From Leptospirillum sp. (lineage in GTDB: Bacteria; Nitrospirota; Leptospirillia; Leptospirillales; Leptospirillaceae), in assembly GCA_027323445.1 (NCBI GenBank), contig DAHWBS010000008.1, positions 1-44,552 on the forward strand: a DNA stretch of 44,552 nt. Direction: 5' to 3'. The stretch's first letter is position 1. Every line of letters starts with the position of its first letter. Under the pieces are notes generated by a model. It was not told where the DNA came from. It saw nothing but the letters and a program-made list of their open reading frames with translations, and did not search any database. Both the position numbers and the translations under genes were made by a program. Positions 18,781 through 23,490 of this stretch are shown in pieces.

Positions 18781-18856
18781 TGGTGGGCCCACCAGGACTC
18801 GAACCTGGAACCAACCGGTTATGAGCCGGTAGCTCTGCCCATTGAGCTATAGGCCC
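18781..18856 (-). tRNA. tRNA with CAU anticodon (elongator Met or lysidine-modified Ile2)
   Basis: GGGCCTATAGCTCAATGGGCAGAGCTACCGGCTCATAACCGGTTGGTTCCAGGTTCGAGTCCTGGTGGGCCCACCA folds as a cloverleaf; CCA encoded; lacks initiator features. Confidence 0.95.
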
Positions 18857-18866
18857 CCGCTTATCC

Positions 18867-20669
18867 CTACCAGTCAACAAAACTCTTAAGTTGCTTGCTT
18901 CTGGCGGGATGTCGAAGCTTTCTCAGCGCTTTTGCTTCAATTTGCCGGATTCTTTCCCGGGTTACATCAAAGTCCTGACCGACCTCCTCAAGGGTATGAT
19001 CCGTTGACTCGCCAATTCCGAACCTTAAACGTATAACTCTTTCCTCGCGATCAGTCAAGGTTCCGAGCGCCTTTCCAATTTTCCTGACCAGATCATACCG
19101 GACAGCAGAATCAATTGGTGAGATCGACTTCTTGTCCTCGATGAAATCCCCGAGATGGCTATCTTCCTCCTCGCCGATCGGAGTTTCAAGAGATATGGGC
19201 TCCCTTGCGATTTTCAAGACTCTCCTGACCTTCTCGACGGGCATTTGCATTTCCTTGGCAAGCTCTTCCGGAAGGGGCTCACGGCCATATTGCTGAACAA
19301 GCTGTCTTGTCGTCCGGATCAGTTTGTTGATCGTCTCTATCATGTGGACAGGGATACGGATCGTTCTCGCCTGATCAGCGATGGCTCTTGTAATGGCTTG
19401 CCTGATCCACCATGTCGCATAGGTGGAGAACTTGAACCCTCTCCGGTACTCGAACTTGTCGACAGCTTTCATTAAACCGATATTGCCTTCCTGAATCAGG
19501 TCCAGAAACTGCAATCCCCTGTTCGTGTAGCGCTTGGCGATGGAGACGACAAGACGCAAATTGGCCTTGATCAACTCGGCCTTGGCTTCCCGAACCTTCT
19601 CTTCGCCAATTTCCAGCTGCTTGGCCCTTTCCCCGATCTCGTCCGCAGACAAAAGAGCATCGGCCTCGGCCCTTCTCACCTTCTCGAGTGACTCCCGGTA
19701 GCGCAAAAAAAGCTCCTGACGATCGGAAGCGGCGAATCGTTCGGGCACAACACCATCCGATCCCATCGATTCAATTGCCTTGAGAATTTCTTCCTTCGGA
19801 ACGGCAAGTTTGCGTCGGGCCTGATCCATCTGGCGGGTTGACTGCTCAATGAGTGCAACCACTTCATGCAGCTGGCGAATCATGAGGTCCACCTGCTTTC
19901 GATGAAGCTTCATCTCCATGATCAGTTCAACGATATCGGACTTCACCTTGTTGATCTGGTCGCGACCGGCCTTTCGGCGGGAAGAGGTCTTCGGGAGGGA
20001 ATGCCAATTTTCTGCCAGTTCGTTCATCTTGGAAAAGTGTCCGGCCAGCTTTTCCGACTGAAGCATGAACTGATCCCGGGCTTCCCTGACGGCAGACGAG
20101 GTTTCTCCCTCCTCTGAGTCATCGGACTCTTCTTCCTCAAAAACATCGACGATTTCCCTGATTCCGACCACACCAGTCTCAAAGCGCTCCCTCAACAAAA
20201 GGATCGTCTTTATGGTGAAGGGCATTCCAAAAAGAATGCCGGAGACTTCCTTCTGACCTTCTTCAATCCGCTGGGCAATCGCAATCTCCCCCTCTCTCGT
20301 CAAAAGAGGGACCGCTCCCATTTCCTTCAGATAAAGCCGAACAGGATCATCAATCTTGGAAAGAGCTCCCGGAGTCATGTCCATGCCCTCGTCGGGATCT
20401 TCATCACTTTCCACGATGGCGTGGGGGTCAACCTCCTCAAAACCTTCCTCATCGTCGGAATCGACATCCCCGAAGGCACCAGCCCCTCCATCTTCCTCGA
20501 CGATATCGATATTCATGTCTCCGAAATAACTCATCAAATGATCCAGCTGATCTGATCCTATCGCCTCCGGGGGAAGGACATTGTTCAACTCATCATAAGT
20601 GAGATATCCCCTCTCCTTGCCGAGACTGATCAGGTCTTTCATTTCATTCAGTTTTTCGCCTTTGCTCAT
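18867..20669 (-). CDS. rpoD: RNA polymerase sigma factor RpoD (sigma-70)
   Basis: Region 1.1, [58 protein letters not shown]-terminal [21 protein letters not shown]. Confidence 0.98.
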
Positions 20670-20816: not shown

Positions 20817-22499
20817 TCAGACAAGCCGCAAGCTCGGGCCGCCACGTTTTCGGGCCTGAAGACCAAGGCGCCGAACCATCGATACAAGATCTCCCAAACG
20901 CTCGTCCCGCCCTTCCTTTCCCGGAGGAAGAGCCATCCAGGAAGCGATAAGGGCTGGTGATCCGGAGATCAGCTGCTGTATTTCAAGCGGAGAAGTCTGG
21001 TGTTTTTCCCAGAGACTTCCCAGAATATCCAGATAGTCTTTCCTCTCCAGAAATGAAAAATCTCCCAGAGACAAAACTTCGGAGGGATGGGGATCACATC
21101 CATCTCCCCACAGCCTGAACAACTCTACAAGAAGATTCTGTTCCTTGAGCTCCCCGTTTGTCGTTCGGGACTTTCGTTCGTCTCCCGGAGGGGGAAGCGG
21201 AGTCTTTCGGTCCCCTCCCTGAAGGATCCTCAACGCAAGAAGACTTTTGTCAATGCCAAAAATACCGGCTCCCATCGAGAGGAGATGATCCTGCTCCAGA
21301 GGATCAGGAACCCGCCTTACAAGAACCTCGAAGCCGGAAAGAATCTCTTCCCGACCCTCTTTTGAGAGATCAAGGGCCTGCTTCATCTGTTCAACAACGT
21401 AGGACGAAAGAAGGGGGGCGGACGATATCTTTCCCATGACCGTTTCAAGCCCGTCTCTTCGGATCCACTCATCAGGATCGAGTCCATCCGGAATCCCGGC
21501 AGCACGCACCGAAAGTCTGGAATCAAAAACCGTTTTCTCAAGAAGGCGTGCCATCGCATCCCTCCCGGCACGATCTCCGTCAAACATCAAAACCACTTCA
21601 TCAACCAATCGGGAAAGGTGGATCAAGTGGGACGATGTCAGCGCCGTCCCCAGCGGAGCGACAACATTGGTCAGGCCACACTCCGACAGGACAATCACAT
21701 CGAAGTAGCCCTCCACTACAACAGCCCGGCGGGTCTTTTCCAGTGACTCCCTCGCCTGATCCAGACCGAAAAGAACATCTTTTTTACGGTAGAAGACATG
21801 CTCGGGAGAGTTCATATACTTTGGTCCGGAACCATCAGCAAGGATCCTTCCGCCAAAAGCAACCGTCGCCCCGTTCTCGGTCCGGATGGGAATAATCAGC
21901 CGGCCGTTCATGAAGTCTCTCGATCCACCACCTCTCATCGGTCGAATGAGACCAAAAAATTCCATCTCTCTCAACCGTTCAGGGCTGGCTTCGCGAAGCA
22001 GTGGAAACGGACCGGAGGGAGAGAATCCCAAGCCGAAACGCTCCGAAGTTTTTTTGGAGATTTGACGTTTTTCGAAAAGATATTCCCTGGCAGGTCCTCC
22101 GTCAGGAGAAAAAAGGGATTTACGATACTGGGCCTCAAACTCTCGATAAAGCCCCAGGCAAACCTTCCTTCGGTCAGCCATCTCAGAGGATCCCGCCCGA
22201 TCAGGAGGCTGGATACCGGCCCGGTCCCCAAGAAATTGCAGCGCTTCGGAAAAGCTCTTGTGCTCGAGACGCTCAACGAAGCGAAAAACATCCCCCCCTG
22301 ACTGGCAGCCGAAACAGTAAAAAAGCTGCCTTTCCGGATCAATCTGAAAAGATGGGGTTTTTTCCTCATGAAAAGGGCACAAAGCTACCCAGACACGGCC
22401 CCTCTTACGTAGCGAAAGACGCCCTCCCGCTATCTCAAGGAGATCCGATGCCTTCCGAACTTTTTCAAGGTAATCCTTCCGGTCAGAAAAATCTCCCAG
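20817..22499 (-). CDS. dnaG: DNA primase
   Basis: CPFHEEKTPSF...YCFGCQSGGDVF (CHC2 zinc finger), RLIIPIRTENGATVAFGGRIL, VVEGYFDVI, MFDGDRAGRDA. Conserved N-terminus (LEKVRKASDLLEIAGGRLSLRKRGRVWVAL) extends past the ORF-track TTG at 22382; upstream start unclear (CTG at 22499 used here). Confidence 0.9.
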   Translation of the reverse strand: MGDFSDRKDYLEKVRKASDLLEIAGGRLSLRKRGRVWVALCPFHEEKTPSFQIDPERQLFYCFGCQSGGDVFRFVERLEHKSFSEALQFLGDRAGIQPPDRAGSSEMADRRKVCLGLYREFEAQYRKSLFSPDGGPAREYLFEKRQISKKTSERFGLGFSPSGPFPLLREASPERLREMEFFGLIRPMRGGGSRDFMNGRLIIPIRTENGATVAFGGRILADGSGPKYMNSPEHVFYRKKDVLFGLDQARESLEKTRRAVVVEGYFDVIVLSECGLTNVVAPLGTALTSSHLIHLSRLVDEVVLMFDGDRAGRDAMARLLEKTVFDSRLSVRAAGIPDGLDPDEWIRRDGLETVMGKISSAPLLSSYVVEQMKQALDLSKEGREEILSGFEVLVRRVPDPLEQDHLLSMGAGIFGIDKSLLALRILQGGDRKTPLPPPGDERKSRTTNGELKEQNLLVELFRLWGDGCDPHPSEVLSLGDFSFLERKDYLDILGSLWEKHQTSPLEIQQLISGSPALIASWMALPPGKEGRDERLGDLVSMVRRLGLQARKRGGPSLRLV

Positions 22500-22508
22500 A
22501 ACCGTAGC

Positions 22509-22967
22509 TTACCCCCCCAGCAACGCTTTCACCTTTTGACTCACAACCCGGTTGTCTGCACGTCCCATGGTTCTCGGAGTCAACCACTTCATGACGGAAC
22601 CCATTTCCTTCGCCGACGCTGCTTGAGTCTCCCGTATCGCCTCAGCGATCAAGGCATCAATCTGATCATTCGATAGCGGTTCGGGCATGAACTCCCGGAC
22701 AATCACCATTTCGGCCTTCTCTTTTTCCACAAGATCTTCACGGCCACCTATCGTAAACTGGGCAACAGACTCTTCCATCTTCCGAAGCATCCCCGAGAGA
22801 AGATCGACGATTTCATCCTCTGTCAGCTGGGCATCGCGGCCCTTCTCAATCGCCTTGTTCTTGATCTGGGACATCACCATCCGGAGAATGGACAACCGCT
22901 CCTTCTGACCAGAACGCAGGCTGTCCTTGATATCCGACTGGATTCTTTCAAAAAGAGCTACCGGCAT
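22509..22967 (-). CDS. yqeY: GatB/YqeY domain protein
   Basis: LFERIQSDIKDSLRSGQKERLSILRMVMSQIKN, FMPEPLSNDQIDALI, MGSVMKWL; rpsU-yqeY-dnaG order. Confidence 0.95.
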   Translation of the reverse strand: MPVALFERIQSDIKDSLRSGQKERLSILRMVMSQIKNKAIEKGRDAQLTEDEIVDLLSGMLRKMEESVAQFTIGGREDLVEKEKAEMVIVREFMPEPLSNDQIDALIAEAIRETQAASAKEMGSVMKWLTPRTMGRADNRVVSQKVKALLGG

Positions 22968-22970
22968 CAG

Positions 22971-23168
22971 TTACCGAACCGCCATACGGGCACGCTTCAA
23001 AGCTTTCTTTCGGGCAGAAAGGGCTTTTTTCTTCAGACGCACGCTTGGCTTTTCATAGTGCTCCCTTTTCTTGATCTCGGAAAGGATTCCGGCTTTCTCG
23101 CACTGCTTTTTAAATCGCTTCAACGCACTCTCAAAAGACTCATTTTCCTTGATACGAACACCTGTCAT
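22971..23168 (-). CDS. rpsU: 30S ribosomal protein S21
   Basis: [45 protein letters not shown]. Confidence 0.95.
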
Positions 23169-23490
23169 ACACTCTCCTTCGTTTTTATCTGGTCTTGATT
23201 TCTAAAAAATGGACATTTGTTTAGTTTAACGCTTGGAAGGACTTCTGTCAAAGAGAGAGCAGCTAGAGAGAACGACCGGAGCTTTTTGGGGAAAACATCC
23301 GGATCACAGCAGCCGGACACCGGGCAGAACGGTCCGTCATTCGTCCAGACTTTCATCTCAATCCCAAAAAAGACTATGGGATCAGTGGATTTTAACCATT
23401 CCGGATTTCTCTCCCCATAGTTTTCATGAGCGAAAAGAACACTGGACCTATTTTTTCCAATGAATTATTGTCCTCAAGAGTCCAGGGGAT

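Follow-up and report, generated by a model that had tools for sequence, protein, structure and literature searches.

Where does translation of the DNA primase gene dnaG begin in this genome of a Leptospirillum-type iron oxidiser? In the window, by which we mean the whole analysed stretch of 44,552 nucleotides, dnaG lies on the minus strand directly behind yqeY, and the initial annotation had claimed that it has no canonical start codon upstream of its conserved N-terminus. The coordinates and letters given there for the yqeY–dnaG junction are correct on re-reading of the sequence, and the claim is borne out: between the yqeY stop codon (22511–22509) and a TTG at 22382–22380, the dnaG frame contains no ATG, GTG or TTG. 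Read along the minus strand, the junction consists of a G7 tract (22518–22512), TAA (22511–22509), GCT, ACG (22505–22503), GTT, CTG (22499–22497) and GGA GAT. The features that bear on the start are listed below, with negative positions counted in codons before the conserved residues CPFH.

22509–22967, minus strand: yqeY, the upstream gene (Pfam PF09424, 146 bits)
22512–22518, minus strand: G7 tract within the final codons of yqeY, a proposed Shine-Dalgarno sequence (pairs with the 16S tail ACCUCCUU at −10.2 kcal/mol)
22509–22511, minus strand: TAA, which ends yqeY and lies 3 nt upstream of the ACG
22503–22505, minus strand: ACG, proposed start codon of dnaG (position −42 in 7/7 genomes, 6 nt past G7; ATG in the sister genus)
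22497–22499, minus strand: CTG, rival start codon (−40 here, −39 in other genera; 12 nt from the G7 tract)
22380–22382, minus strand: TTG, first canonical codon, rejected as start (CTT in L082, CTG in L083; costs 41 residues)
20817–22505, minus strand: dnaG (DNA primase), from ACG to stop, 562 aa (TIGR01391, Pfam and PDB matches)
22463–22520, minus strand: 58-nt stretch identical in three species of the window's genus, the longest identical run of the aligned region

The frame downstream of the yqeY stop encodes a full DnaG with zinc ribbon and Toprim domains, above the curated cut-off. The NCBIfam model TIGR01391 matches with 344 bits (cut-off 283.6) from residue 10, counted from the ACG, and the Pfam domains are Zn_ribbon_DnaG (also from residue 10), DNAG_N and Toprim. 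In alignments with the solved structures 2au3 and 1d0q, DnaG residues 13 and 11 onward pair with chain residues 7 and 8, respectively. This is the only dnaG match in the genome. Among 98 scorable DnaG loci, 90 have a canonical start 30–60 codons before CPFH, and the remaining eight are this genome and six relatives, one of which was fetched twice. The missing canonical start is therefore more than chance.

The seven genomes concerned belong to four genera. We refer to the genus of the window as g1 (three genomes), to the three further genera with the ACG as g2, g3 and g4 (four genomes together) and to a sister genus as g5. In all seven, ATG, GTG and TTG are absent from the conserved N-terminus of dnaG.

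A sequencing or assembly error hiding a normal start has to be considered, since the window comes from a fragmented draft (1.51 Mb, 109 contigs, 73% complete). Two further g1 genomes were compared, one of them a complete chromosome in a single 2.56-Mb contig. The three separate g1 assemblies share an identical run of 58 nt (−15 to +42 relative to the ACG) that includes the G7 tract; the four genomes of g2–g4 likewise lack the start. We reject an error at this junction, which is the most improbable of the explanations considered here. Elsewhere in the g1 alignment, coding identity is mostly 0.6–0.9 per 60 nt. The first 14 codons of dnaG are all identical, whereas over the remainder of the gene 42% of comparable codons are; a further dnaG window likewise scores 14/14 in these three genomes. 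Conservation at the dnaG start is thus strong but not unique, and indicates extra conservation at the DNA level in one genus. A second identical stretch of 38 nt lies inside dnaG from +405 (about 22063–22100, minus strand) in the three g1 species and may be the other 14/14 window.

The initial annotation had proposed an alignment of the junction with related genomes. In the four genomes of g2–g4 (about 51% protein identity) a canonical start is absent as well, and an ACG is retained exactly 42 codons before CPFH in 7/7 genomes of g1–g4. The position is thus kept across about 50% protein divergence. No other near-cognate codon occupies one common position across the seven genomes. The first canonical codons, on the other hand, are scattered, lying at −1, −3, −11, −13 or −17. 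This distribution bears on the view that a shortened DnaG is made from the first canonical codon, here TTG 22382, which is also the first codon acceptable to a standard gene finder. The two congeners have CTT and CTG in place of the TTG, and the region upstream of CPFH keeps protein homology across genera. The earlier estimate that a start at the TTG would delete about 40 conserved residues holds: 41 are lost, the majority of which align with DnaG zinc domains of solved structure. We reject the truncated form as very improbable.

The main rival is translation from the nearby CTG (22499–22497), which follows the ACG at a distance of two or three codons, depending on the genus. A CTG occurs near this place in 7/7 genomes, the resulting N-terminus would be of normal length, and in Escherichia coli CUG outperforms ACG as a non-canonical start. 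However, its position shifts by one codon, from −40 in g1 to −39 in g2–g4, and it lies 12–15 nt from the Shine-Dalgarno match, compared with about 5–6 nt for the ACG. The pair of codons that separates ACG from CTG differs among g2–g4 by third-position changes only, at few sites, and so varies as if translated. The CTG is therefore an unlikely start, less likely than the ACG.

The initial annotation had also raised readthrough of the UAA, which would yield a YqeY–DnaG fusion. The two genes do share one frame in g1, but agreement of frames is expected by chance in one case in three, and in g2, g3 and g4 the frames do not match. Joining by a frameshift fares no better: slippage at the G7 tract cannot bypass the TAA, which sits downstream of it in the dnaG frame. 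As a conserved mechanism, readthrough is rejected, and we regard fusion by either route as highly improbable.

The ACG is well placed for ribosome binding. The predicted Shine-Dalgarno duplex upstream of it has an energy of −10.2 kcal/mol in g1, −6.5 kcal/mol in g2 and g3 and −7.3 kcal/mol in g4, and in each case a near-cognate codon at a conserved position stands at a proper distance from the match. An altered 16S tail was considered and ruled out, the tail of the complete congener genome being the normal CACCTCCTT. The stop codon of yqeY precedes the ACG by 3 nt in g1 and by 1 nt in g2–g4, so that stop and start lie within a few nucleotides of each other in all four genera. Termination–reinitiation coupling, another option raised by the initial annotation, would be compatible with these intergenic distances. 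We found no conserved RNA structure at the yqeY–dnaG junction; the folds differ between genera.

The absence of a canonical start, the retention of ACG at one position, the Shine-Dalgarno match and the adjacent yqeY stop together indicate that dnaG in the window and in its g1–g4 relatives is likely to be translated from ACG 22505–22503. Non-canonical initiation at this codon, one of several possibilities listed at the outset, is thus strongly supported by comparison of sequences.

The sister genus suggests how the ACG came about. In g5 the gene begins ATG GCG GAT GAA TGG, which resembles the ACG GCT GAT of g4, and the yqeY stop lies tens of nucleotides (about 48–110) before the ATG. In a DnaG tree the seven ACG genomes form one clade (support 100/97) beside the ATG genus (100/100). 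Because the ACG clade is monophyletic beside a genus with ATG, the ACG would most simply have arisen once from a canonical start and been kept since, and the seven genomes probably stem from one event. The tight junction and the ACG occur together, a pattern that amounts to one evolutionary contrast, between g1–g4 and g5.

A mechanism can be proposed for initiation at the ACG. A ribosome ending yqeY would re-initiate at the adjacent ACG, or a 30S subunit would bind there, and the ordinary initiator tRNA would pair near-cognately with the codon, mismatched at its second base, and insert formyl-methionine. Initiation would therefore be weak, tied to translation of yqeY and subject to repression by initiation factor IF3. 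IF3 represses rare start codons, and regulatory use of this effect is possible (PMC5472188); excess IF3 reduces re-initiation (PMC2268962). Second-position mismatches are strongly disfavoured by IF3 in vitro (PMC10158994), and the ACG is therefore expected to be a weak start.

Two other ways of decoding the ACG were considered. An initiator tRNA variant carrying the anticodon CGU was rejected, there being no CGT variant among the 21 genomes searched; the initiator loop pattern CTCATAA is present in 19 of these 21, and two gave no match in the pattern search. The sequence GGGCTCCTAACCC at G002:C59:682-694 matches the loop pattern with a changed base, probably by chance. Alternatively, the dnaG mRNA might be edited from ACG to AUG. 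Nothing in the sequence suggests this, and we know of no editing of this type in bacterial mRNA. ACG is the codon that plant chloroplasts edit to AUG (PMC9845219), but we hold editing here to be highly improbable, on a par with the fusion of YqeY to DnaG.

Initiation by the ordinary initiator tRNA at the ACG can be considered in relation to the neighbouring genes, which follow one another on one strand in the order rpsU–yqeY–dnaG–rpoD, the gene order of a macromolecular-synthesis operon. The outer genes are:

22971–23168, minus strand: rpsU (ribosomal protein S21), first gene of the operon (Pfam PF01165)
18867–20669, minus strand: rpoD, last gene of the macromolecular-synthesis operon (Pfam sigma-70 regions 1.1–4)

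A promoter-like site precedes rpsU at 23251–23223, and such sites are no commoner here than in shuffled sequences. A tRNA-Met gene lies directly past rpoD (18781–18856, minus strand). In E. coli primase is needed in few copies, and a weak start would fit a low-copy protein whose gene shares an operon with those of S21 and sigma-70. Primase would thereby be kept scarce relative to these two products, a dosage effect of the kind suggested in the initial annotation. For this weak, coupled and IF3-sensitive control of primase dosage we see the case as evenly balanced. The macromolecular-synthesis operon rpsU–dnaG–rpoD is known from E. coli (PMC10931766), with the same three genes in the same order as here. 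Here, by contrast, yqeY lies between rpsU and dnaG, and the latter has no canonical start.

To place dnaG among the other genes of these organisms, start codons were screened in 0.8 Mb of the complete congener against about 0.9 Mb of one g2 genome, using 480 non-overlapping homologous pairs and looking for conserved homology upstream of any canonical start. The screen requires at least six aligned upstream residues and extends over roughly one third of the genome, and its result is a lower bound. Most matches in a first screen came from frames antisense to or overlapping neighbouring genes; an overlap filter and visual inspection removed them. Three genes were left after inspection: dnaG (ACG), infC (ATC) and csrA (ATT). 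Because only these stood out among 480 pairs, the genomes are not generally lax in their choice of start; few genes have rare ones. The gene infC, whose rare start is known (PMC5472188), serves as a positive control; its start is ATC in g1–g3 and ATT in g4 and g5 (L117–L122, L103–L116). In the printed stretch, the infC start region of G005 (g3) is identical to that of G001 (g1) and unlike that of its congener G004 (L121, L122), and G005 may hold a contaminating contig.

Within the family csrA, which lies outside the window, starts with ATT at 17 of 20 loci, which include L181–L184, L188, L189 and L200 in g1–g4 and L186 and others in g5; two loci have ATG (L185, L187) and one has ATA (L196). 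The 23 csrA loci from other Nitrospirota have ATG (19), GTG (3) or TTG (1). It is conceivable, though we put it forward tentatively and think it rather doubtful, that IF3 controls a group of key genes, infC (AUC/AUU), csrA (AUU) and dnaG (ACG), through their start codons. If so, levels of primase and of CsrA, a global regulator, would track initiation fidelity, that is, the state of the translation machinery.

To our knowledge, natural bacterial genes that start at ACG are almost unreported, and we found nothing direct in the literature on bacterial ACG starts or on Leptospirillum dnaG. An analysis of 61,358 ancestral AUG starts lists switches only to GUG, UUG, CUG and AUU (PMC5622118); being built on annotated starts, it may have been unable to reveal ACG. 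The closest parallels to dnaG are found elsewhere. Like dnaG, infC (AUU/AUC, with IF3 autoregulation) is essential and combines a rare start with a good Shine-Dalgarno sequence that has been long retained, but its codon deviates at the third position and controls IF3 itself, whereas that of dnaG deviates at the second position in a replication gene right behind another gene. The sigR gene of Streptomyces (GTC; PMC5472188) shares with dnaG a rare start that is conserved in the genus and invisible to standard gene finders. It differs in that the GTC start was proved by mutation and is IF3-repressed, and in that sigR is not a replication gene, whereas the ACG start of dnaG is proposed from sequence comparison. 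Known termination–reinitiation systems (PMC2268962) resemble yqeY–dnaG in having stop and start 1–3 nt apart and a Shine-Dalgarno sequence within the upstream gene; those cases involve AUG or designed codons with matching initiator tRNAs, whereas coupling of yqeY and dnaG is putative.

One practical consequence is that gene finders cut the DnaG of these genomes short. The dnaG ACG offers a natural site for testing IF3 discrimination, translational coupling and primase dosage, and the AUU start of csrA in the same family suggests that there are further such genes. Retention of ACG by an essential replication gene in four genera would mean that selection can favour a start codon mismatched at its second position.
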